Positions 7,642 through 55,144 of a stretch of DNA of 64,000 bases are shown here, one piece after another. A program made the translations under genes and the position numbers. The DNA is from Leptotrichia sp. OH3620_COT-345 (GTDB lineage: Bacteria; Fusobacteriota; Fusobacteriia; Fusobacteriales; Leptotrichiaceae): positions 62,001 through 126,000 of the forward strand of contig NZ_RQYW01000004.1 in the NCBI RefSeq assembly GCF_003932895.1, given 5' to 3'. The notes beneath the pieces were generated by a model, which saw nothing but the letters and a program-made list of their open reading frames with translations, was not told the DNA's origin and ran no database searches. Each line of letters starts with the position of its first letter. The stretch's first letter is position 1.

Positions 7642-8976
<1,335 letters not shown>

Positions 8977-42310: not shown

Positions 42311-43822
42311 ATGAAATTGAAAAAAAACGAAAAAAATATTTTAAAGTTTCTGGCAGAAAAAAATATCTTCAGAACGGCAGACGAAATATCCGAAAAACTG
42401 AAAATATCTACTGCAACAATATACAGAACTGTAAAATTACTAAATAATTCTTTTTCTTATGATAAATTAATTTTTTCTGAAAAGGGTAGAGGTTTTAAGT
42501 TAAATTATGACATTTATCTGACAATAAACAATTACGGTAAAGATAAAAATGAAAAACTGCCGATTGAACGAAGAAATGAACTGCTGTTAAAACTGTTATT
42601 CAAATCACCTATAAAAATAAAACAGGAAATTTTATTTAAAGACTGTTACTTGGGAGAAGCCAGTATAAATAAAGATATTTCAATAATGAAACAGGAATTG
42701 AAAGAACACGGCATAACTTTTTTTAAAAAGGATGGCTACATATGGATAGAAGGTAACGAAAAAGCCATAAGAAAACTGACCGGAAAAATTATAAACAATC
42801 TGAATTTCATCAATATTGACAAAGCTTACAACAGTGAGGATAAAAGAGATTTTGATATTGATTTTGTATTAAGACAGATGGAATATATAGAGCAGGAATT
42901 AAATATAAATATATCTTATCCGTATAATATTAATATTTTTTCACATATTTACATACTTATAAACAGATTTAGAAAAGGAAAAATACAGACTGACTTTGAA
43001 TTAAAAAAAATAAAAGAAGAAAATTATCCGAACAAACTGGTTTTATCTATCTCTAAAAAAGTAATTAACAGATTAAGCGGTTATCTGAATACGCAATTTC
43101 CTGAAATAGAAGTAGAATACCTGTATCAGTATTTAATCTCATCAAGTATTTATGAAGAAAATTCTGAAAATGAGGTAACAGAAACAGAAACGATAAAAAT
43201 TATCAAATTTTTCATAAAGGAAATGGGAAAAAATTCGAGATTACAGTTTAACAGTAAAGAGCTTGAGAAGGATTTGCTGAGTCATTTCAAACCTATGCTG
43301 CAAAGGTTAAAAAACGGAATAGACATAAAAAACGATCTGCTCCACGAAATAAAAACAGAATATAAAGTTATTTACAATTATACTTTGGAAGTTTCAAAAA
43401 AAATTTCCGCAGAATTTAATTTATCATTTATTTCACAAGAGGAAGCGGCTTTTATAACTTTGTATTTCGTCAAAAATTTAAAAGAAATAAATACGGAAAA
43501 AAATGTGATAATTATCTGCTCAAGCGGTATAGGAACTTCAAAACTGTTAAAAGCAAAAGTAAAAAAGACCCTTCCTGATATAAATGTAGTAGCTGTATTA
43601 TCCTACAGAAATTATCTGAAAAATAAAGAAAAATATTCTGATATAGACTTCATACTGACTACAGTAAAACTAAAACAGGAAATAAATGTGCCGTATTTAA
43701 TGGTAAGTGCTATATTTACCGAAAATGACAAAGACAGAGTAATCAAAATGATAAAGGAGATAGACTATGAAAACAGAAAACAATATAAATCTGGGAAAAG
43801 TAATAAAACTGAACTTAATTAA
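42311..43822 (+). CDS. PRD-containing transcriptional activator of the sugar operon
   Basis: 503 residues. N-terminal HTH_11 (about 5-60), a second Mga/HTH region (about 90-160), two PTS-regulation domains (about 190-385, with histidines HIYILINR and the SQEEAAFITLYF segment) and a C-terminal EIIB-like domain with VIIICSSGIGTSKLLKAK (about 395-480). The final EIIA-like domain of MtlR/LicR-type activators is missing; instead a separate IIA gene starts 56 bases before this gene ends. Activity is probably set by phosphorylation from PTS proteins. GGAGGTG precedes the ATG. Confidence 0.9.
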   Translation: MKLKKNEKNILKFLAEKNIFRTADEISEKLKISTATIYRTVKLLNNSFSYDKLIFSEKGRGFKLNYDIYLTINNYGKDKNEKLPIERRNELLLKLLFKSPIKIKQEILFKDCYLGEASINKDISIMKQELKEHGITFFKKDGYIWIEGNEKAIRKLTGKIINNLNFINIDKAYNSEDKRDFDIDFVLRQMEYIEQELNINISYPYNINIFSHIYILINRFRKGKIQTDFELKKIKEENYPNKLVLSISKKVINRLSGYLNTQFPEIEVEYLYQYLISSSIYEENSENEVTETETIKIIKFFIKEMGKNSRLQFNSKELEKDLLSHFKPMLQRLKNGIDIKNDLLHEIKTEYKVIYNYTLEVSKKISAEFNLSFISQEEAAFITLYFVKNLKEINTEKNVIIICSSGIGTSKLLKAKVKKTLPDINVVAVLSYRNYLKNKEKYSDIDFILTTVKLKQEINVPYLMVSAIFTENDKDRVIKMIKEIDYENRKQYKSGKSNKTELN

Positions 43823-44252
43823 AAGTCATACTGAAGCTGCGGATAAAAAAGATATTATCACTCAGCTGACAGATTTATTATACCGTGAAAAATGTATATC
43901 CGAAAAAGAATCTTTTATTAATGATGTATTTCTCAGAGAAGAAGAGGGGTCTACAGGACTGAGCCAAGGGATAGCCATACCTCATGGAAAATCCAAAAGT
44001 GTGAAAAAAACTTCTATTGCAATTGCAACATTAAAAAATCAAATTTTCTGGGAAGAACCCGACGAACATGTAGAAGTCGTAATTTTATTTGCTGTACAGG
44101 ATAAAGATGTGGAAACGACACACATACTGTTATTACAGCAAGTTGCAATAATGCTCGCAGATGAAGAATTTATAGACAGCATAAAAAAATCAAAAACAAA
44201 AAATGAAATATACAGTCTTTTTGTAAACAGAAAAAATTTTAAGGAGGATTAA
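43767..44252 (+). CDS. PTS EIIA, fructose/mannitol family
   Basis: 161 residues. Phosphorylated histidine in GIAIPHGKSKSV, with the family's LREEEGSTGLSQ before it. The ATG at 43767 has its own AAGGAG site even though it lies within the regulator's end (56-base overlap, different frame). It supplies phosphate to the IIB encoded 900 bases downstream, and perhaps to the PRD regulator. Confidence 0.92.
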   Translation: MKTENNINLGKVIKLNLIKSHTEAADKKDIITQLTDLLYREKCISEKESFINDVFLREEEGSTGLSQGIAIPHGKSKSVKKTSIAIATLKNQIFWEEPDEHVEVVILFAVQDKDVETTHILLLQQVAIMLADEEFIDSIKKSKTKNEIYSLFVNRKNFKED

Positions 44253-44254
44253 TT

Positions 44255-45127
44255 ATGTTAATAACAGGAAAAGAGCTACTAACCGTAGCACAAAAAAACA
44301 GATTTGCGGTACCTGCATTTAATGCCGGTTCAGGACAGCTTTTCACCGCAATACTGGAAAGCTGTGAAAAGTTAAATGCACCGTTTATGATTGAAATTCA
44401 TCCTGATGAACTATCATTTTTAAGAGACAGCTTTATAGCTCAAGTCAGGGAAGGAGCAAATAAAACCCGTATTCCTGTCTGCATACATCTGGATCACGGA
44501 GCCTCTTATGAGCAGGTGATACATGCAATACAGCTGGGATTTACATCAGTTATGATAGACGGTTCACACCTACCTTTTGAAGAAAATGTGGCAATCACAA
44601 AGAAAATAACTGAAGCGGCCCATGCAGCAGGAGTATCCGTCGAAGGAGAATTGGGAACAATCGGAGATACAGGAAACACAGTTGAAGGAGGAGTAACTGA
44701 AATCACATATACCGAACCTCTGAAAGCTGAAGAATTCGTAAGAAGAACAGGAATAGACTCACTGGCAGTTGCCATAGGAACAGCTCACGGAATATATCCT
44801 AAAAATATAAAACCTGAGTTAAGATTGGATATATTGGAAGAAATAAAAAAACTGGTAAATATACCTTTGGTTCTTCATGGAGGCTCAAGCAATCCCGATA
44901 TTGAAATTGTAAAAGCTATTGAAATAGGAATCAATAAAATAAATATATCCAGTGATATTAAAATCGTATTTGCACAGAAATTAAGGGAATTACTGAACTT
45001 AGGAAATACAGAAATAAGAGAACCGAATGTTTTATTCCCTCCTTGTATGGAGGAAACAAAAAAAGTTGCCGAACATAAAATAACTCTTTTTAAGTCAGAC
45101 AATAAAGCAAAATTATATTTTAAATAA
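44255..45127 (+). CDS. Class II ketose-bisphosphate aldolase
   Basis: 290 residues. Zinc ligands in IHLDHGASYE (His, Asp-His), GTAHG and LHGGSSNP, with GELGTIGD in the middle. This branch covers fructose- and tagatose-bisphosphate aldolases (FbaA, KbaY, GatY). Operon context suggests cleavage of a ketose phosphate or bisphosphate produced after PTS uptake. It starts two bases after the IIA stop with AAGGAGG upstream. Exact sugar is not clear from sequence. Confidence 0.92.
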   Translation: MLITGKELLTVAQKNRFAVPAFNAGSGQLFTAILESCEKLNAPFMIEIHPDELSFLRDSFIAQVREGANKTRIPVCIHLDHGASYEQVIHAIQLGFTSVMIDGSHLPFEENVAITKKITEAAHAAGVSVEGELGTIGDTGNTVEGGVTEITYTEPLKAEEFVRRTGIDSLAVAIGTAHGIYPKNIKPELRLDILEEIKKLVNIPLVLHGGSSNPDIEIVKAIEIGINKINISSDIKIVFAQKLRELLNLGNTEIREPNVLFPPCMEETKKVAEHKITLFKSDNKAKLYFK

Positions 45128-45152
45128 AAATCATATTTCATAAACTGAAGGA

Positions 45153-45479
45153 GTGAATAAAATGAATATAGTCGGTATAGCAGCATGTACAGCCGGTATA
45201 GCACATACATATATTGCTAAGGAAAAACTGATAAATGCAGCTAAGAAAAAAGGACATCATATCCGGATTGAAACTCAGGGACTGGCAGGAACACAGGGCG
45301 AATTACCCAAAAGTGAAATTGAAAAAGCTGATATAGTCATTATAGCTGCGGATATTAAAATAAACGGCAAAGAGAGATTTAAAGGTAAAAAAGTAGTTGA
45401 AGTAGCTACAGGAATAGCAGTTAAGTCTCCGGGTAAATTAATGGAAAAGTTGGAGGAACTGGTAAACGATAAACAATAA
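45153..45479 (+). CDS. PTS EIIB, fructose family
   Basis: 108 residues with the active cysteine in AACTAGIAHTYIAKEKL near residue 9, the hallmark of fructose-type IIB. It passes phosphate from the IIA to the incoming sugar. AAGGAG before the ATG. The stand-alone IIB is typical of Frw/Frv-like systems. Confidence 0.93.
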   Translation: MNKMNIVGIAACTAGIAHTYIAKEKLINAAKKKGHHIRIETQGLAGTQGELPKSEIEKADIVIIAADIKINGKERFKGKKVVEVATGIAVKSPGKLMEKLEELVNDKQ

Positions 45480-45505
45480 CATACAAAATTTATGGAGGTA
45501 ATAAA

Positions 45506-46594
45506 ATGAAAAAAATTGAAATTAAAAAGCATTTAATGACAGCAATCTCATTTTTCTTACCAATTGTTGTTGCTTCGGGATTTTTACTCGCAATCGGAAA
45601 CATGATGGGAGGAAAATCAATTAAAAGTTTTGTAGACGAATTTACATTTGCAGATACTATGACAACAATGGGAGGTTACGGATTAGGCTTGCTTCCTATG
45701 ATTGTATCAACAGCAATCGCTTACTCTATTGCAGATAAACCGGGTATTGCTCCGGGACTGATAATAGGCATGGTTGCCTCAGGAATTAATTCAGGATTTT
45801 TAGGCGGACTTATAGGTGGATATTTAGCAGGATACACAGTACTGATAATTGTTAAGTATATAAAAGTTCCCGACTGGATGCAGGGACTGATGCCGACATT
45901 GGTAATACCTTTTATCAGCTCATTTATCGCGGGATTAATAATGTACTATATAATCGGAACTCCTATTAACTGGTTTTCATCATTAATTACAGGCTATCTG
46001 TCCGGTCTTGACTCTTCCTCACTCTTTATTTACGGAGCAAGCATAGGCATTCTCGCTTCAATAGATTACGGAGGAGCAATTAATAAAGTTGTATTTGCTT
46101 TTGTATTTGCATTATTTTCAGAAGGGATATATGAACCTATAACTGTTCTTATTTTAGCTTCAATGACAACTCCTTTCGGATTGACTTTAGCATACTTTAT
46201 AGGAAAAATAATTAATAAAAATGTATTTAATAAACAGGAAATAGAAACATTGAAAACAGCTTTTCCTATGGGAGTGTGTCAAATAACAGAAGGTTGCTTT
46301 CCTATTGTCTTAAATGATTTAGTTAAAAATGTAATTGCCACAGGTATCGGGGGAGCAGTCGGAGGAGGTTTCAGTATGCTTTGGGGAGCTGACAGCCATA
46401 TTCCCGCCTCAGGTATGTTTGCACTATTTACAATGACAAAGCCATGGGCATTTATAGGGGCTTTATTCTTAGGTTCTCTTGCAAATGCAATAGCTATATT
46501 AATTTTAAAACCTAAAACAGATCCCGATTCAATCCCTGTAATTGAAGAAAAAGAGGAAAAAGATATTTCTTGGGACAGTTTAAAAATAAATTAG
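45506..46594 (+). CDS. PTS EIIC, fructose family
   Basis: 362 residues with about nine membrane segments, starting HLMTAISFFLPIVVASGFLLAIG and containing the GFLGGLIGGYLAGY and PMGVCQITEGCFPIVLND segments of fructose-type IIC. Transports a sugar with concurrent phosphorylation. Placed between IIB and the isomerase; AGGAGG precedes the ATG. Confidence 0.93.
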   Translation: MKKIEIKKHLMTAISFFLPIVVASGFLLAIGNMMGGKSIKSFVDEFTFADTMTTMGGYGLGLLPMIVSTAIAYSIADKPGIAPGLIIGMVASGINSGFLGGLIGGYLAGYTVLIIVKYIKVPDWMQGLMPTLVIPFISSFIAGLIMYYIIGTPINWFSSLITGYLSGLDSSSLFIYGASIGILASIDYGGAINKVVFAFVFALFSEGIYEPITVLILASMTTPFGLTLAYFIGKIINKNVFNKQEIETLKTAFPMGVCQITEGCFPIVLNDLVKNVIATGIGGAVGGGFSMLWGADSHIPASGMFALFTMTKPWAFIGALFLGSLANAIAILILKPKTDPDSIPVIEEKEEKDISWDSLKIN

Positions 46595-46605
46595 GAGATG
46601 TTAAA

Positions 46606-47127
46606 ATGGATAAATTAAAAAAAGAAGTACGTGAGAAATTTTTAAAATCAGGAATGACTTTCACAGAAAAAGAACTTAACTCTATAGAATACGCTGATTT
46701 CGGATTAAACAATTTCAAAGAGGAAGGATTAAGCTTAATTGTTTATGAAAATAACAGCAGATACTGTGCAAAAGAAATGGTTCTTCTGGAATATCAGACC
46801 TGTCCTGAACACTTACACCCGAATAGAGGTAAGGAAGCAGGTAAAAAGGAAACATTCAGGTGCAGAAAAGGGACCGTGTATCTATTTGTTGAAGGTAAGG
46901 AAACTGATAAAATAAATTCTGAAATTAAAATTCCTGAAGGAAAAGAAAAGTTTTATACAGTAAAACACTGTATAAAATTGTCCCCGGGGGAACAGTACAC
47001 AATAGAACCCGATACTAAACATTGGTTTCAGGCAGGGAAGGAAGGAGCTGTTATTTCTGAGTTTTCATCTAATAGTGATGATGCTTCAGACATATTTACA
47101 AATCCTGATATAATTAGAGTTAATTAA
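46606..47127 (+). CDS. D-lyxose isomerase-like cupin sugar isomerase
   Basis: 173 residues. Cupin metal ligands: PEHLHPNRGKEAGKKETFRC (two His and a Glu) and TKHWFQAG (last His), the pattern of D-lyxose/D-mannose isomerases of the E. coli O157 Z5688 and B. subtilis YdaE kind. It converts an aldose to its ketose (lyxose to xylulose, mannose to fructose). It fits with the xylulokinase at the end of the operon. ATG at 46606 follows AGGAG; it overlaps nothing. Confidence 0.82.
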   Translation: MDKLKKEVREKFLKSGMTFTEKELNSIEYADFGLNNFKEEGLSLIVYENNSRYCAKEMVLLEYQTCPEHLHPNRGKEAGKKETFRCRKGTVYLFVEGKETDKINSEIKIPEGKEKFYTVKHCIKLSPGEQYTIEPDTKHWFQAGKEGAVISEFSSNSDDASDIFTNPDIIRVN

Positions 47128-47130
47128 AAT

Positions 47131-47184
47131 AAAAGGGAATATTTCAGATAAAATGAAATTCTTATTTTAAAATATTCCCTTTTT
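47131..47184 (+). terminator. Internal terminator between isomerase and epimerase genes
   Basis: Perfect 14-base arms AAAAGGGAATATTT and AAATATTCCCTTTT around a 25-base loop, followed by TAT; it ends just before the ribosome site of the epimerase. It could reduce expression of the last two genes. The T-run is short beyond the stem, so read-through is likely. Confidence 0.6.
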
Positions 47185-47196
47185 ATAAGGAGAAAA

Positions 47197-48146
47197 ATGA
47201 AAAGCTTAAACTGGAATTTTCTGATTTAGGCTGTATAATAAAATCCTTAATAAAAAAAGAAAATAATACCAATTACGTTTTAAGATATAAAAAAGATAGC
47301 CAATATTTAAAAAATATATATTATTTCGGAGCAATAATAGGTAGAAATGCAGGAAGAACCTATCCCTGTTACTATAAAAATTTCAATAATGAAATAATCA
47401 ATCTGGATAATAATGAAAATAGTGTACATTTACATGGTGGGAAAAACGGACTGGATAAAAAAAACTGGAATGTTCAAATTATTAATAATGAAAAAGCAGT
47501 CTTAAAATTTAAAGACTGTAATTCTTTGTACGGTTCCGGAGAGCTGACTGTAATATATGAATTATATAAGTCAAACTTTAACATTAAAATATATGGAAAA
47601 TCAGAAAATCCCGATATATTTAATCTTACAAGTCATTCATATTTTAATTTGAATAAAAATAAAGACAGCATTCTGAAACATCACCTCTTTATTTCAGATT
47701 CAAGACTTCAAATAATAGACCGACAGTTTATTCCCACAGAAGAATACATTGATTTTAAAAAAGAAAGTAATTTTTCGGAATATGATTTCAGCAAACTGAA
47801 GGAAATCAGGCATTCAGTTGATAAAAATACAAGTTTATCCGAAATATGCGATTACGGAATTGATTTAGCCTACTGTTTTAAAAAACATGATTATAAAAAT
47901 AAAATAGAAATCTGGTCTGATAATTATGAGAATGGATTAAAAATCTCCAGTAATCAGGAAGCATGTGTAATATATACATTAAACAAAATTACTGATGAAG
48001 CCGTCAAATTGGAAAATGGAAAAAATATAAAAAAATATAACGGCATTACATTTGAAATGCAAAGGAAACCGAATTATGTACATTCAGAAAAAACAGATAT
48101 TTTAACTGGCAATTATTACAGTATCACAAATTATGAAATCATATAA
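47197..48146 (+). pseudogene. Aldose 1-epimerase with an early frameshift
   Basis: From about 47199 a single frame encodes a galactose-mutarotase-like protein: VHLHGGKNGLDKKNW (catalytic-site His region), FNLTSHSYFNLN, PTEEYIDF, and TFEMQRKPNYVH near the end. There is no start codon in that frame. An ATG with an ideal AAGGAG site lies at 47197, one base out of frame: ATGAAAAGC would need one more A. The 950-base length is one short of a multiple of three. Either a one-base loss in an A-run (real or a sequence error) or start at an internal TTG (47526) giving only 206 residues. It should interconvert sugar anomers for the operon. Confidence 0.82.
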
Positions 48147-48160
48147 AGGCGGTATAAAAT

Positions 48161-49636
48161 ATGAGTTATGTTATCGGTATTGATTTAGGAACAAGTTCCG
48201 TTAAAGGAATTGTTGTTGACAAAAACGGAGAAATTTTATCAGTAAAAAGTAAAAATTACAGTCTTATACAGAAAAAATCCGGCTATTCCGAACAGAATCC
48301 TACAGATTGGATAGAAAACTGTTACGAGGTACTGTCACTTCTAACAGAAGAAATTCCGGAACTGTGTGAAAAATTAGAAGCAATTTCCATATCAGGACAA
48401 ATGCACAGTTTAGTCTTATTAGACAACCAATTCAAAGTTCTCAGAAATGCGATACTTTGGAATGATACGAGAAATGCGGAAGAATGTAACTTTATTAACT
48501 CAAATCATAAGAAAAAAATATTGGAAATTACTAAAAATATAGCATTAGAAGGCTTTACACTGCCAAAAATATTATGGGTTCAAAAAAATGAGCCTGAAAT
48601 ATGGAGTAAAGTCAAATACATCATGCTACCTAAGGATTATTTAGGATATAAATTAAGCGGAAAAATATATACAGACTGTTCTGATGCTGCCGGAACACTA
48701 CTGTTCAATTTGGAAACGGGATACTGGGATGAGAAAATAACGGAAATTTTTAATATTCCTAAAAGCTGTTTACCTAAACCCTTTTATTCTACTGAAATAA
48801 TAGGAACTGTAAGAAAAGAAATAAAAGAAAAATACGGCTTCAGAAATAATATAAAATTAATTGCGGGAGGTGCGGATAATGCCTGCTCTGCAATAGCAAA
48901 CGGAATTCTGGAAGAAAATGTAGGATTAGTAAGTATAGGAACTTCAGGAGTTTTTCTTTCATATGAAAAAACCCTTCATAATAAATATAACGGTAAATTA
49001 CATTTTTTCAAGCACTGTGAAAAAAATTCCTATTATTCAATGGGAGTCACTTTATCAGCCGGATACAGTTTAAACTGGTTTAAAAAAACATTTGCGAACA
49101 AAGTAAGTTATGACGATCTGTTAAATGATATTAAAGAAATAAATCCGGGAGCTGACGGACTCTTATTTTCACCGTACATTTCAGGCGAAAGAACTCCGTA
49201 TGCAGATGGTAAAATACGCGGAAGCTTTATCGGAATGGACAGTCACCACTCTTTAAAACATTTTACAAGAAGTGTTATTGAAGGAATAACTTTTTCTTTA
49301 AAGGATTCCATGGAGTTAATGAAAAAGCTGGGAAATAAAAATTATGATTATATAGTATCTACAGGAGGAGGAAGTAAAAGCGAAGAATGGCTTCAAATCC
49401 AGTCAGATATATTTAATTGCCGTATAGTAACATTACAGACTGAACAAGGTCCCGGTTTTGGAGCTGCAATGGTAGCGGCAGTAGGGATTGGCTGGTTTAA
49501 AAATTTGAAAGAATGTTCAAAAACATTCCTTAAATACGATAAAAGTTTTTATCCTGATATTGAAAATGCAAAAAAGTATGAAGCAGTTTATGAAAAATAT
49601 AAAAATATTTACAAATATACAAAAGCATTAATGTAA
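48161..49636 (+). CDS. xylB: Xylulokinase, FGGY family
   Basis: 491 residues, the usual length. N-terminal phosphate-binding GIDLGTSSVKG, SISGQMHSLVLLD (a xylulokinase hallmark), second phosphate loop VSIGTSGVF, and STGGGSKSEEWLQIQSDIF with the FGGY signature. It makes xylulose-5-phosphate from D-xylulose, which would be the product of the lyxose isomerase two genes upstream. Last gene of the sugar operon, 14 bases after the epimerase. Confidence 0.93.
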   Translation: MSYVIGIDLGTSSVKGIVVDKNGEILSVKSKNYSLIQKKSGYSEQNPTDWIENCYEVLSLLTEEIPELCEKLEAISISGQMHSLVLLDNQFKVLRNAILWNDTRNAEECNFINSNHKKKILEITKNIALEGFTLPKILWVQKNEPEIWSKVKYIMLPKDYLGYKLSGKIYTDCSDAAGTLLFNLETGYWDEKITEIFNIPKSCLPKPFYSTEIIGTVRKEIKEKYGFRNNIKLIAGGADNACSAIANGILEENVGLVSIGTSGVFLSYEKTLHNKYNGKLHFFKHCEKNSYYSMGVTLSAGYSLNWFKKTFANKVSYDDLLNDIKEINPGADGLLFSPYISGERTPYADGKIRGSFIGMDSHHSLKHFTRSVIEGITFSLKDSMELMKKLGNKNYDYIVSTGGGSKSEEWLQIQSDIFNCRIVTLQTEQGPGFGAAMVAAVGIGWFKNLKECSKTFLKYDKSFYPDIENAKKYEAVYEKYKNIYKYTKALM

Positions 49637-50218: not shown

Positions 50219-51310
50219 TTATTTTTCAGAAAAAGCAAATTTCTGCCACGGCTTTATGTAATCCAAAATAAACTGTTCATGTTCAAATATTTTTCCGACT
50301 ACATTTGATTTTCCCGTATTTTTCATTTCTTTCAAAGCAATCATCAATTCCCCTGCATAATGTCCATATTCACTGCTTTCAATTATTATATCTCCTCTTT
50401 TTATAATTTCAGGAGCATTAAACAGTTTGAAATTATGACCTTTATATTTTACCCTGCTGTTAGTGGACCTTATAACATTTTCCGAAACATCACCTCTATT
50501 AAAGTGAAGTTCTTCCGTAACTATTTTCCTTTCAACTTCAGGAATATCCGAAATAAGTTCCACTGCAAAGCTTACCATATCTTTTCTTACATTTTTCAAT
50601 TTTTCAATTTCTCGGTCTGTAGGGTAGCAATTAGATATAATAATATCATCGATAGTTTCCAAAGCCATATAATGTCTGAACTGGGTTTCCACAGGTAAAT
50701 ATCTATGGATCTCAAGAGTTGGCAATCCCTGAGTTACAGGCCATGGACCGAAAGTGTTTTCAGCTTGTGATGTTATAAATGCAGCTGTTCTCAAACCATA
50801 TTTTGTAAATCTTTCAGTACATCTGTTAAAAAAATCTATTCCAAGTCCGGTATAAGCATGAGGATAAAAGTTATGACACCCGATCAAATTTGCTTTATTC
50901 GGTCTGTAATCCATTATAGTATCTATATAATGAGTGTCCATACTCATATTTATTTCTATTTTCAATCCCTGACCTTTAAAAGTCATCAGACTTTCCTGCA
51001 ATCCTGTAAAACCCATATCGAGCCTTATTCCATCAGCTTTTATTTCACTGAAAAAACTCAAGTCTTCATAACTTATTCCCAACTCAGAAAATACTCGAGG
51101 ATTTACATCTAAAATTATTTCAAATCCTTTTGATTTTGCATACGAATTTATTCTTTTAAAATTTTCCTTTATTTTTTCCTTTTCATCGGTTACGGATAAA
51201 AGACAGCTGAATATTCTTGAAAAACCTGCTTCTGCAGCTTTGTCAATATATCTGTATATTTTTTCTTCTGTTGTTTTTTCAGGATAAATTGAAATTCCAA
51301 GTTTTTTCAT
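50219..51310 (-). CDS. mupG: MupG-type 6-phospho-N-acetylmuramidase (DUF871, GH170)
   Basis: 363 residues: N-terminal TIM barrel (LGISIYPEKTTEEK start; IKADGIRLDMGFTG; GCHNFYPHAYTGL; AAFITSQAEN segments) and a C-terminal cyclophilin-like domain from about 245 (HFNRGDVSENVIRSTNSR, IIESSEYGHYAGELMI). This is the layout of DUF871 proteins, of which MupG of Staphylococcus aureus splits MurNAc-6-phosphate-GlcNAc. It follows the lactose-family PTS genes on the same strand, so the PTS probably supplies its phosphorylated disaccharide. RBS AAAGGA before ATG. Confidence 0.9.
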   Translation of the reverse strand: MKKLGISIYPEKTTEEKIYRYIDKAAEAGFSRIFSCLLSVTDEKEKIKENFKRINSYAKSKGFEIILDVNPRVFSELGISYEDLSFFSEIKADGIRLDMGFTGLQESLMTFKGQGLKIEINMSMDTHYIDTIMDYRPNKANLIGCHNFYPHAYTGLGIDFFNRCTERFTKYGLRTAAFITSQAENTFGPWPVTQGLPTLEIHRYLPVETQFRHYMALETIDDIIISNCYPTDREIEKLKNVRKDMVSFAVELISDIPEVERKIVTEELHFNRGDVSENVIRSTNSRVKYKGHNFKLFNAPEIIKRGDIIIESSEYGHYAGELMIALKEMKNTGKSNVVGKIFEHEQFILDYIKPWQKFAFSEK

Positions 51311-51345
51311 TTTACATTCCTTTATGTAATAAATTTACGTTAATT

Positions 51346-51365
51346 ACGGATAACGTATAATCCGT
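51346..51365. promoter_or_regulatory. Inverted repeat upstream of mupG
   Basis: ACGGAT and ATCCGT arms around eight bases, extended by TA/TA on both sides, 36 bases before mupG in the 212-base gap after the IIC gene. No T-run follows, so an operator or RNA-processing hairpin is more likely than a terminator. Confidence 0.35.
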
Positions 51366-51522
51366 TATAGCAAAATGCATCTGAAATTTCTGTTTTAAAT
51401 TTCTCGAAGTTACAGTATATAAATTGTATAAAAAATAAATATATTTTTATACAATATCAATTTATTTTAAGTATATATTAACTTTATTTATTTCCATTTT
51501 TTATAATCACTGTTTCTTATTA

Positions 51523-52860
51523 CTATTCCTGCTCTCCTGAACTTTCCTCTTCGATCATTTTTTTATCATATACTTTAAAGAACGGATAATATATTATAAT
51601 TGATGATATTATCAGAATAATACTTAATATTGATGCTCTAAAATCTCCATTGGTAGCTAAAAATGCTCCTATAGGTGCCGGCAGCGTCCAAGGCGGTGTT
51701 GATGTAACTTTGTTTACCCACCCGATTGATGTAAATAAATATGCAAGCGAAGAATTTACAATAGGCACAATTATAAAAGGCGGTATAAGTACAGGGTTCA
51801 ACACTATCGGTGATCCGAATATAATAGGTTCATTAATATTGAATATTGATGACACGATAGATGTTCTTCCAAGTGTTTTTCCATAACTGGATTTCGCCAT
51901 TGTAGTCAGAAGTATTGCAAGTCCTATTGTCGCTCCTGACCCTCCTATCCATATAAACCACTGATAAAAAGGTTCTGCAGCTATATGGGGTATCATTTTT
52001 CCGTCAGCAAGAGCTGTACTGTTTTCTTCAAGAAGTGTAAGCCATAAAGGTCTTACAAGGGAACCTACTATTGAAACTCCGTGTATTCCGAATGACCAGA
52101 AAAATGTTATAAGAAATACTATTATTATTACTGAAATCCATGAATCAGTGGCTTTTACAAGAGGCCCTATAATTATCTTCATTATTCCGTGTAAATTTAC
52201 ATTTAACCAGTAACTTACTGTAGCTACTACAAGAACTACTATAAGCGTCGGTGTCAGTGCTTCAAAAGACCTTGCAACTGAAGCGGGAACACTGTCAGGC
52301 ATCTTTATTCTAAATCCTGTAGTTGTAGTAAGTCTGTATACCTCAACTGCAAATATTGCAATAAGGATACCTACAAAAAGCCCTGCCGAACCTAAATTTG
52401 TCATAGGCATTACAAAGCCCAGACCTTCCTGAAGGATAGCAGCTCCTTCAGTTCCTTTTTCAGCTATTACCTGTACTTCTTTCCCGTCAATAACTTGTGT
52501 AATTACAGCAATTTCTTTTACAACTCCCGGAACTATTGTCAACAGAAATCCGCACGTTGCAAGTATTGCCCCTGTAATCCCGTCGAGTTTATAAGACTTC
52601 GCCAAACTGTTTCCTATTCCCATGACCGCATAAAGAGCCATTATAAACATTGTCATACGGTAAGGCAGCAGTATTTTAGCTATATTTTCCTTTGCCCATA
52701 CTGATATTCCCCAGTCTGCAGGAAATGGCGGAAATGCTACAATCAAGAATATCGACCCCACTATTATTAAAGGCAATGTAGCTATAATCCCGTCACGGAT
52801 AGCTCTCAAGTGTCTCTGCTCAGAGAGTTTTGCCATTTGCATTGATAATTTTTCCAGCAT
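51523..52860 (-). CDS. celB: PTS EIIC, lactose/cellobiose family
   Basis: 445 residues with about ten membrane segments: N-terminal HLRAIRDGIIATLPLIIVGSIFL, FWSFGIHGVSIVGSLVRPLW and the NINEPIIFGSPIVLNP loop used in sugar binding by this family. It carries a beta-linked disaccharide and works with the IIB and IIA genes upstream. AAGGAGG precedes the ATG. Linked to mupG rather than to a 6-phospho-beta-glucosidase, suggesting a muramyl disaccharide. Confidence 0.93.
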   Translation of the reverse strand: MLEKLSMQMAKLSEQRHLRAIRDGIIATLPLIIVGSIFLIVAFPPFPADWGISVWAKENIAKILLPYRMTMFIMALYAVMGIGNSLAKSYKLDGITGAILATCGFLLTIVPGVVKEIAVITQVIDGKEVQVIAEKGTEGAAILQEGLGFVMPMTNLGSAGLFVGILIAIFAVEVYRLTTTTGFRIKMPDSVPASVARSFEALTPTLIVVLVVATVSYWLNVNLHGIMKIIIGPLVKATDSWISVIIIVFLITFFWSFGIHGVSIVGSLVRPLWLTLLEENSTALADGKMIPHIAAEPFYQWFIWIGGSGATIGLAILLTTMAKSSYGKTLGRTSIVSSIFNINEPIIFGSPIVLNPVLIPPFIIVPIVNSSLAYLFTSIGWVNKVTSTPPWTLPAPIGAFLATNGDFRASILSIILIISSIIIYYPFFKVYDKKMIEEESSGEQE

Positions 52861-53021
52861 ATAACTTCCTCCTTAAATATAATTCATAAAAAAATATGTA
52901 AATTTATTATTTAATTTTTTTAACTTCTTCTATTTTTCAAAATAATCAAAATATAGTTTTTAATTTATAAGCAATATTTTAATACTGTCATTTCTATAAT
53001 TTTTTAAAGTTATAAAAATTT

Positions 53022-53330
53022 CTATTTTGCCAATAAATCCTGTATCTGCTTCAAAAGCTTCGGGCCTCCTAAAGGGCTGTATGCCTGAGGCTGTATCATT
53101 TCACACGGTACTCCCGCTTCTTTTGCCTGTTGATTCAATGTATCAAATCTATGCTTTACTTGGGGAGCTACCATTGCGGCATCATAGCCTTTTTTTATTT
53201 CTTCTTCAAACTGTTGGGTACTTACAGCATTTACTTCAACTTCCACTCCTTTTGACTGCGCTTCCTTTTTTAGTGCATTTACTGCAATTGTGCTGGACAT
53301 GCCTAAAGAGCACACAAATAATATTTTCAT
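53022..53330 (-). CDS. celA: PTS EIIB, lactose/cellobiose family
   Basis: 102 residues. Active cysteine at position 8 in ILFVCSLGMSSTIAV, forming the phosphate loop. Phosphate donor to the sugar transported by the IIC 160 bases downstream. GGAGG before the ATG. Confidence 0.93.
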   Translation of the reverse strand: MKILFVCSLGMSSTIAVNALKKEAQSKGVEVEVNAVSTQQFEEEIKKGYDAAMVAPQVKHRFDTLNQQAKEAGVPCEMIQPQAYSPLGGPKLLKQIQDLLAK

Positions 53331-53385
53331 AAATTACCTCCGATTTATTCTTTTATTTCTATTCAAATTTACTATTCGTCTACAA

Positions 53386-53766
53386 TTAAACAAATTTTCT
53401 CCAAAAAAACCATAAATATGACATTATTGCAAATATTACTCCAAATATTGCATATTGTATCCAAAAACTTTTTGAAAATCCTTTTTTGGAATCTATAAAA
53501 TGTCTTACCCATGTAAATGCAAAACTTGTAAAAAATGTATTTCCTAAAACTATACCCATCCTCATATCTTTTACTCCAACAAAAGTCAATAAAAATGGAA
53601 TCAATGTTGTTCCTATAAAAGAACTTATTATTATTCCCAATGCTGATTGCAAACTGAAAGGTTTTATTTCAGAATCGGATTTTTTTTCTTCTTCCTTTTC
53701 TTTTTTTTCTCTTTCCCTGATTTTTTCTTCATGTCTTGAATTATATTTTTTTATTTTTCTTCTCAT
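53386..53766 (-). CDS. Small membrane protein of unknown function inside the PTS operon
   Basis: 126 residues. The first 35 are very basic and acidic (KKYNSRHEEKIREREKKEKE then EEEKKSD), likely a helical cytoplasmic arm; three membrane helices follow (about 42-62, 68-85 and 100-122). GAGGGGA precedes the ATG. It lies between the IIA (11 bases) and IIB genes, so it is surely part of the operon. No family was recognised; a role as PTS accessory subunit is a guess. Confidence 0.75.
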   Translation of the reverse strand: MRRKIKKYNSRHEEKIREREKKEKEEEKKSDSEIKPFSLQSALGIIISSFIGTTLIPFLLTFVGVKDMRMGIVLGNTFFTSFAFTWVRHFIDSKKGFSKSFWIQYAIFGVIFAIMSYLWFFWRKFV

Positions 53767-53777
53767 TTATTTCCCCT

Positions 53778-54113
53778 CTATATTTTCGATTTTTCCAATC
53801 TATCTATTCTTTTATACATTTTAATCATACATTCAATTAACGATTTCGCTTCCACAGCCGTCATCAGATGATCTTGAGCATGTACAAACAGAACTGAAAC
53901 ATCTATATCATCCCCTGATGTTTCGGCTTGAATAATTTCTGTCTGAATATTATGAGCTTCAAGTAATGACTTATCAGCCTCTTTCAACAGATTTTCAGCT
54001 TCATTCCAGTTCCCTTTTTCAGCTTCTCTTAAAGCTTCATAAGCCAAACCTTTGGCTGTTCCTGCACTGTTTACAATATCAAATACAATTATTTCTAATT
54101 TTTCCTTATCCAC
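53778..54113 (-). CDS. celC: PTS EIIA, lactose/cellobiose family
   Basis: 111 residues, all helical. Phosphorylated His in LFVHAQDHLMTA, the lactose-type IIA hallmark, and NSAGTAKGLAYEALREAEKG at the N-terminus. Start GTG at 54113 after AGAGGAGG. First gene of the operon IIA - small membrane protein - IIB - IIC - mupG. Confidence 0.93.
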   Translation of the reverse strand: MDKEKLEIIVFDIVNSAGTAKGLAYEALREAEKGNWNEAENLLKEADKSLLEAHNIQTEIIQAETSGDDIDVSVLFVHAQDHLMTAVEAKSLIECMIKMYKRIDRLEKSKI

Positions 54114-54153
54114 TTGTCTTTCCTCCTCTGCTGTAATTTTTATTAAATTAATC

Positions 54154-54191
54154 TATACTATATAGTATAACCTTATCTTTGATTTTTTCAA
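54154..54191 (-). promoter_or_regulatory. Promoter of the PTS/mupG operon with palindromic operator
   Basis: TTGAAA (54186-54191), 16-base spacer and TATACT (54164-54169) on the minus strand. The -10 lies inside the perfect palindrome TATACTATATAGTATA (54154-54169), which ends near the transcription start. A regulator bound there would block polymerase. The YheO-type protein encoded upstream is a candidate. Confidence 0.6.
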
Positions 54192-54297
54192 GAGCTAACC
54201 TCTATTTTTTTTATTTATTTTATGAAAAATTTACTTTTTTAAAAAAATATAAAATTATATCGTTTATGAGAATTTCTATCTAAATATACAGTGATTC

Positions 54298-54400
54298 TCA
54301 AATATGATTAAGTACTTTTGAGATTTTAAAAATTTTGTAATCAGCACCCGGAATTTGAAGGTAATTATGAAAAACATTCTCAAAAAGTAAAAAAAACTAC
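54298..54400 (+). repeat. Dispersed intergenic repeat, diverged copy D
   Basis: CTTTTGAGATTTTAAAAATT followed by TTGTAATCAGCACCCGGAAT parallels TTTTGAGGTTAAAAAATTTT and GTAGCCGGTAGCCGGAGTGT of the 59.4 kb copy. Here ACTTTTGAGA and TCTCAAAAAGT form the stem in place of GAGGGC. The homology is by eye. Confidence 0.4.
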
Positions 54401-54439
54401 TTTCCAATACTCTATTGAAAAACAGCTTTTTTAATATTT

Positions 54440-55144
54440 TTATCTTTTAGTTTTTTTACTTTTATTTTCTTCCTGCTCCTGTCTTTTTATTATTTGAACA
54501 TAACGGTAAACACTTGCTTCAGACATTCCCAGAGCCTTCGCAATTTCCACGACTGCTCCTTTCAGCAGGAATATTCCTTTTAAATACAATACTTCTATAA
54601 TTTTTAACTTATCCTGCTGTTTTAAATATTCTATGGAAACATTTTGAGTAGACAATACATCGCTTATTGCTTCATGAGCAACTTCCTCTATGGATAATGA
54701 CAAATTCTCCGAATCCATATTTTCATTATTCGGAACTATCTCTTCCTTAATAAAATTTTCCTGTAATTTTTTCACCATGGAAAAAAGACCGTCAAAAACT
54801 GCTTCATCCGTGTTGACACATATCATTCCTATTAATTCTCCTTCTTCACGGATAAAATAAGTCGATGATTTCAATGCTTTATTAAATTTCCCTATCCCCC
54901 TATAATTCGCAATAAAGTCTCTTTCTTCTTTGTGGCTTTCCTTTAAAATCCTTAATACAAGGTCTGTTGCAGGTGCTCCGACTTCCCGATTGGAAATATG
55001 ATTATTTCTGATTGCGACTATTGAATGATCAAGGTCTTCCAAATCATGTAACACTATTTCACTATTTTTCCCCAAAATCGCTTCAAGAAAATCCACAAGT
55101 GGAATATATTTTTGTAATTTGGAATTTATATTCAATTTTCCCAT
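54440..55144 (-). CDS. YheO-type PAS/HTH transcriptional regulator
   Basis: 234 residues: N-terminal PAS-like YheO domain (about 10-120, starting YIPLVDFLEAILGKNSEIVLHDL) and C-terminal helix-turn-helix (IAKALGMSEASVYRYV, about 205-220). Family members such as DauR regulate amino-acid or sugar metabolism. It lies upstream of the lactose-type PTS operon, same strand, with its own promoter; it probably controls that operon. Confidence 0.88.
   Translation of the reverse strand: MGKLNINSKLQKYIPLVDFLEAILGKNSEIVLHDLEDLDHSIVAIRNNHISNREVGAPATDLVLRILKESHKEERDFIANYRGIGKFNKALKSSTYFIREEGELIGMICVNTDEAVFDGLFSMVKKLQENFIKEEIVPNNENMDSENLSLSIEEVAHEAISDVLSTQNVSIEYLKQQDKLKIIEVLYLKGIFLLKGAVVEIAKALGMSEASVYRYVQIIKRQEQEENKSKKTKR

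Follow-up and report, generated by a model that had tools for sequence, protein, structure and literature searches.

A GH170 glycosidase and a lactose-family phosphotransferase system in Leptotrichia as a possible salvage module for a GlcNAc-terminated disaccharide

Which sugar does a lactose-family phosphotransferase system (PTS) import when the glycosidase encoded beside it belongs to the family of MupG, the enzyme that cleaves a phosphorylated cell-wall disaccharide? The question is raised by a gene cluster at 50219-55144 of the DNA analysed here (hereafter the window), a stretch of 64,000 nucleotides from Leptotrichia sp. OH3620_COT-345 (NCBI RefSeq assembly GCF_003932895.1, contig NZ_RQYW01000004.1, positions 62,001 to 126,000). 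A preliminary description had interpreted the cluster as a different type of permease feeding MupG with a disaccharide of N-acetylmuramic acid (MurNAc) and N-acetylglucosamine (GlcNAc), namely MurNAc-GlcNAc. Given the phylogeny and the gene company presented below, which draw on hundreds of genomes, we propose that the cluster is a salvage module for a single substrate, a disaccharide with GlcNAc at its non-reducing end, and so the mirror image of the MurP/MupG route. We assign this reading a probability of about one half.

The window glycosidase and its gene company

The glycosidase gene (50219..51310, minus strand) encodes both domains of the GH170 family. PF19200 (MupG_N) matches over its full length with E 1e-92 (310 bits against a cut-off of 24) and PF05913 (MupG_C) matches with E 6e-39 (133 bits against a cut-off of 24.4). 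The protein is 51% identical to the B. cereus structure 1X7F. Phylogenetic analysis of 115 GH170 proteins, 114 of them different, revealed a MupG clade and a second deep clade, here called GH170-II, separated by a branch of 0.97 with support 100. The window protein does not group with the MupG sequences linked to murQ and murP; it is placed in GH170-II together with 1X7F and BBB07 of Borrelia. Among the MupG-clade loci with sufficient flanking sequence, murQ is found in 16 of 18 and an adjacent glucose-family IIBC on the same strand in 12 of 18, and no lactose-family IIC is adjacent within a 1.5-kb test in any of the 18. GH170-II loci have a lactose-family IIC within 7 kb in 62/79 cases, adjacent in 45/79. 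The alignment column of window residue 227 is fully diagnostic in the rows compared, with Asn in 94/94 GH170-II and Asp in 19/19 MupG sequences, counts that exclude L127 (Asn) and the truncated L059 (Asp). Judging from the alignment, this exchange could alter substrate choice.

The draft genome (99.56% complete), which was searched family by family, encodes a classical MurNAc set elsewhere. We identified murQ at C7:46946-47809 (375 bits against a cut-off of 302), unlinked to the window module, followed by an RpiR-type regulator (murR), a glucose-family EIIBC (murP), an esterase in two frames, a beta-lactamase-like gene and a second GH170 gene. This is the MurQ/MurR/MurP/MupG set of S. aureus (PMC6262408) with two extra genes. 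The second GH170 gene, having murQ and a glucose-family murP in its operon, is mupG proper; the window gene, which shares 28% identity with it at the protein level, has no such operon, belongs to GH170-II and carries Asn227. Thus murQ, which the preliminary description looked for outside the window, is present in the genome, and the idea of another permease type feeding the same enzyme is not supported: the window enzyme is a deep paralogue. Across this bacterial family, murP/mupG operons repeatedly include the esterase and the beta-lactamase-like protein (L008:8054-10667, where the esterase also lies in two frames). A decayed cluster (L228:8041-12943; G000:C5, about 16-21 kb) has a broken glucose-type PTS, an RpiR fragment, pieces of a GH4 gene and a nagA-like gene with a stop.

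The permease gene IIC (51523..52860, minus strand; PF02378, E 2e-52) scores above the TIGR00410 cut-off for the lactose/cellobiose family (368 against 236 bits) and under the curated equivalog cut-offs for cellobiose, lactose and diacetylchitobiose (TIGR00359, 368 against 434 bits; NF007634, 170 against 760 bits), and the missing equivalog match leaves the substrate of the PTS unfixed. Its closest solved structure is 3QNQ, the cellobiose-type PTS IIC (ChbC) of B. cereus. The window GH170 protein lies in a clade of 21 rows (support 99), and murQ is found within 7 kb in 15 of the 16 rows outside its genus. A separate IIC tree gives the same grouping, with the window IIC among systems linked to murQ and AnmK and with Borrelia ChbC and 3QNQ on other branches.

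Sister genera within the family carry the module inside a murQ/murP cluster. One locus (L109) reads murQ-GH4-IIA-IIB-IIC-GH170-murP, and another, which contains both GH170 types (L121, genome G082), reads murQ-RpiR-GH4-IIA-TM-IIB-IIC-GH170-II-murP-esterase-beta-lactamase-like-MupG (TM, transmembrane protein). The module occurs with murQ, AnmK and a BadF-type kinase in Bacillota and Actinomycetota as well, in different gene orders, and murQ, AnmK and MurK-type kinases thus stand beside it in relatives from three phyla. Locus L018 presents murQ-GH1-IIA-hydrolase-TM-IIB-IIC-GH170-kinase-AnmK on a single strand, and the nearest solved structure to its kinase is 8ZO3, a MurNAc/GlcNAc kinase. The AnmK gene in or beside the module is the sole genomic copy in seven genomes; in Kurthia senegalensis the only AnmK gene of the genome (L024:2515-3625) is broken by a stop and lies in two frames. 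In one murQ cluster of C. paraputrificum (L019), a MupG-type and a GH170-II gene each adjoin a lactose-family IIC of their own, and murQ, AnmK and a BadF kinase are distributed between the two and behind them; the two divergent IICs form long branches in the IIC tree and their placement was given no weight. Several of the Gram-positive genomes examined encode AnmK and MurQ with a lactose-family PTS as the sole transporter of the same cluster.

An out-of-sample test of the hypothesis, which had been formed on the loci above, used Lactobacillales genomes sampled evenly across the order, and neither of its two sets included the Carnobacterium and Enterococcus genomes of the earlier comparison. 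Twenty GH170 loci at or above 55% identity to the window protein had a lactose-family IIC in 20 cases, RpiR in 17, AnmK in 14, murQ in 10 and a BadF-type (MurK-type) kinase in 10, and 18 of the 20 had at least one of murQ, AnmK and the kinase. The corresponding counts for 20 loci at 44-50% identity were 6 for the IIC, 2 for RpiR and 0 for AnmK, murQ and the kinase. The difference in AnmK (14/20 against 0/20) gives a Fisher p of 3e-6, and such p-values are overstated, as the genomes within each set are related; the direction of the contrast is clear despite this kinship.

A proposed route and its alternatives

PTS phosphorylation falls on the non-reducing sugar of a disaccharide, and the substrate of AnmK, 1,6-anhydro-MurNAc, is only ever the reducing end. 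AnmK would therefore have no task if the cargo were MurNAc-GlcNAc, and its presence beside the module in relatives points to GlcNAc-(anhydro)MurNAc as the likely cargo, cleaved in its GlcNAc-6-phosphate form. In addition, GH4 enzymes oxidise C3 and should not act on MurNAc, whose 3-OH is blocked, so that the GH4 genes in some of the clusters favour a non-reducing sugar with a free 3-OH. The earlier idea of muropeptide disaccharide uptake is hence retained in part: the murQ, AnmK and MurK neighbours in three phyla are consistent with a cell-wall disaccharide, and the opposite orientation of its two sugars is favoured.

In the route that we infer, the lactose-family PTS would import a beta-1,4-disaccharide whose non-reducing sugar is GlcNAc, which it would phosphorylate at C6. 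GH170-II would then cleave the product inside the cell to GlcNAc-6-phosphate and the reducing-end sugar, which in most close relatives is probably MurNAc or 1,6-anhydro-MurNAc. AnmK or a MurK-type kinase would convert this sugar to MurNAc-6-phosphate, and MurQ would yield GlcNAc-6-phosphate and D-lactate. The substrates of C. acetobutylicum MurK are free MurNAc and GlcNAc (PMC5790795). The L. paracasei GH170 enzyme ChbE is genetically required for the use of diacetylchitobiose (PMC12791066), which makes GlcNAc-6-phosphate at the cleaved end plausible for the GH170 family.

At the same even odds, we suggest that this is a widespread form of peptidoglycan salvage in Bacillota, Actinomycetota and Fusobacteriota, in which a lactose-family PTS takes up GlcNAc-(1,6-anhydro)MurNAc, GH170-II acts as a 6-phospho-beta-N-acetylglucosaminidase, and AnmK or MurK together with MurQ finish the pathway. 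The window would hold a genomically uncoupled version, and BBB07, from the same subfamily, would be the chitobiose-6-phosphate hydrolase of Borrelia. The literature searched, which lacks most subscription journals, yielded no description of GlcNAc-MurNAc or GlcNAc-anhydroMurNAc entering through a PTS, or of AnmK linked to a lactose-family PTS. If the proposal is true, a PTS and a phospho-glycosidase of GH170-II would explain the uptake of anhydro-muropeptide sugars in Gram-positive genomes with AnmK and MurQ, and GH170 would be split into two activities according to which sugar is phosphorylated.

Several observations weigh against this proposal. The window genome has neither AnmK nor a BadF-type kinase (MurK) above cut-off, and murQ, AnmK and MurK are near the module in 0 of 4 loci of the window genus, where the module is accompanied by a YheO regulator alone and is separated from murQ (as seen in three genomes, of which one also occurs as a named record of a metagenome-assembled genome, MAG). 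AnmK is also missing from most Leptotrichiaceae whose cluster includes murQ, and the low-scoring BadF matches that were examined are ROK-like, so that the proposed route does not account for free MurNAc there. The literature searched contained no enzyme assay of a GH170-II protein. Finally, related GH170-II branches have other neighbours, such as Borrelia chbAB or DgaE, and specificity thus drifts within the family. The evidence from gene company is, moreover, indirect.

Two weak BadF matches in the window genome were considered as MurK and rejected, being ROK glucokinase-like proteins. Free MurNAc would require a different kinase here, for which these two are no more than candidates. As AnmK and MurK are absent, GlcNAc-anhydroMurNAc was dropped as a definite cargo in this organism. 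The likeliest cargo in the window genus is GlcNAc-MurNAc in its non-anhydro form, or else a different disaccharide ending in GlcNAc, for example diacetylchitobiose. A gene for a cytosolic-looking GH3 enzyme lies at C4:34-35 kb and is not tied to the module.

Two further groups of GH170-II genes were observed. One (L014, L015, L016, L032, L095-L097, L216, L221, L223, L224) is linked to a metallohydrolase and to DgaE, a pyridoxal phosphate-dependent ammonia lyase, which suggests another substrate such as an amino-sugar-acid glycoside; 1X7F falls in this branch. The other, mostly from Erysipelotrichaceae (L036-L051, L054, L056, L061, L063), has no recognised complete lactose-family PTS nearby, and several of its members have GH1 neighbours.

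With no AnmK and no BadF kinase above cut-off, N,N'-diacetylchitobiose remains a serious rival in this organism, possible but clearly short of even odds. The PTS would make GlcNAc-6P-GlcNAc and GH170-II would hydrolyse this to GlcNAc-6P and GlcNAc, the scheme put forward for L. paracasei ChbE; in the window genus the system would have been re-targeted away from muropeptides. Growth of L. paracasei on diacetylchitobiose needs both chbE and its lactose-family PTS (PMC12791066), and the gene for Borrelia BBB07, which belongs to GH170-II and shares 44% identity with the window protein, begins 12 bp past chbB of the chitobiose PTS. The position of 3QNQ as nearest solved IIC, the presence of nagA in the window genome together with the lack of AnmK and MurK, and the inclusion in the B. 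thuringiensis NagR regulon of an 'outer surface protein' gene, an annotation also borne by 1X7F (PMC6141813), point the same way. Against these stand the GH170 and IIC trees, both of which group the window module with systems linked to murQ and AnmK rather than with Borrelia or 3QNQ. The first idea, prompted by the second mupG and by the Borrelia and L. paracasei cases, had been a plain chitobiose system with no relation to muropeptides; it was demoted to a rival on finding murQ in nearly all sister-clade clusters.

Import of MurNAc-GlcNAc and cleavage of MurNAc-6P-GlcNAc, as in MurP/MupG, is unlikely. The glycosidase family is the same, murQ is present in the genome and stands beside the module in sister genera, and those genomes of sister genus g6 that have murP and the lactose PTS have GH170-II as their only GH170 enzyme. 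However, MurP and a true MupG are already encoded together in one operon of the window genome, the Asp of the MupG clade is missing from the window enzyme, and the association with AnmK in relatives would be senseless with MurNAc at the non-reducing end.

Least probable is a system for cellobiose or another plain beta-glucoside with GH170-II as 6-phospho-beta-glucosidase: CELO2 of B. coagulans, which gave E. coli cellobiose uptake, has a DUF871 gene in place of a phospho-beta-glucosidase (PMC6271610), and some relatives have GH1 or GH4 genes in the cluster, but these would then be redundant, the window IIC falls under the cellobiose cut-off (368 against 434 bits), four GH1 genes lie elsewhere in the window genome, and the company of AnmK, murQ and MurK is strong.

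Remaining genes of the cluster

The genes of 50219-55144 are intact frames on the minus strand, transcribed in the order YheO-type regulator, IIA, membrane protein, IIB, IIC and GH170, and their Pfam and TIGR matches bear out the PTS and MupG-family assignments made previously. The cluster is, as described before, without murQ and without a 6-phospho-beta-glucosidase; a GH4 gene lies 42 kb off in the same window (about 8413-8952). The IIA protein (53778..54113; PF02255, E 7e-34) retains the histidine motif VHAQDHLM, and the IIB protein (53022..53330; PF02302, E 3e-15) retains the N-terminal cysteine motif VCSLGMSS.

Two genes add to the preliminary description, which was silent on a membrane protein and on the kind of regulator. 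The regulator (54440..55144), directly upstream of the PTS genes, is YheO-like, with PAS (PF08348) and HTH_22 (PF13309) domains, and not of the MurR/RpiR type; the two further genomes of the genus and the MAG locus L017 keep it in this position. The membrane protein (53386..53766) has 126 amino acids, at least two predicted spans and no Pfam match, and is encoded between IIA and IIB. Counterparts occur inside related PTS clusters (L018, L020, L106, L113, L121, L126, L142, L189, L193, L195), among which an FI-x-x-x-x-GF stretch is partly conserved. It is possibly an accessory subunit, with a position comparable to that of the DUF3284 proteins of Bacillota.

A palindrome, ACGGATAACGTATAATCCGT (51346..51365), lies in the 212 nt that separate IIC from GH170; its core GGATTATACGTTATCC is shared with L142 and L017, in which the flanks show a paired change. 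The palindrome is not present in the short gap of L113, and the pattern allowing two mismatches occurs at chance level. It is a possible operator, weakly supported. Promoter and terminator scans gave results near chance. At 43767-49636 of the window we identified fructose-type PTS genes, a class II aldolase, a D-lyxose isomerase-like gene, a mutarotase fragment and a xylulokinase, likely a pentose or ketose PTS cluster.

Comparison with known systems

In Gram-negative bacteria GlcNAc-anhydroMurNAc is recycled by AmpG, NagZ and AnmK. The proposed cargo and, in relatives of the window module, the AnmK and MurQ steps are the same, whereas a PTS with phosphorylation and a phospho-glycosidase would replace the AmpG permease and NagZ. 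The S. aureus MurP/MupG/MurQ route (PMC6262408) resembles the window system in the PTS uptake and phosphorylation of a cell-wall disaccharide followed by an intracellular GH170 enzyme, with murQ in the genome. MurNAc is the phosphorylated, non-reducing sugar of that route and its permease a glucose-family IIBC; the window has lactose-family IIA, IIB and IIC proteins and an enzyme of the other GH170 clade, unlinked to murQ, and the orientation of the disaccharide is likely reversed.

The Chb operon of L. paracasei (PMC12791066) likewise combines a lactose-family PTS with a GH170 enzyme for a GlcNAc-terminated disaccharide. It differs in having a DUF3284 gene and the repressor ChbR, and no link to murQ or AnmK is reported for it; ChbE was compared by description and not by sequence. 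B. burgdorferi chbCAB and BBB07 share with the window a row of IIA, IIB and GH170-II and the Asn at the diagnostic column, but the Borrelia IIC is divergently placed and lies on another branch of the tree.

BBB07 (L012:4769-5866; B. burgdorferi B31 cp26, NC_001903) has both GH170 Pfam domains (271 and 129 bits). It is currently annotated as an alpha3-beta1 integrin-binding protein, and its predicted N-terminus has no obvious export signal. A rel mutant shows raised expression of genes that include both bbb07 and chbCAB (PMC4331090), and double mutants of bb0002 and bb0620 still use chitobiose (PMC2845121). BBB07, encoded beside chbAB, is a candidate for the chitobiose-6-phosphate hydrolase of Borrelia, and would provide a named candidate for the missing step of chitobiose use in B. 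burgdorferi.

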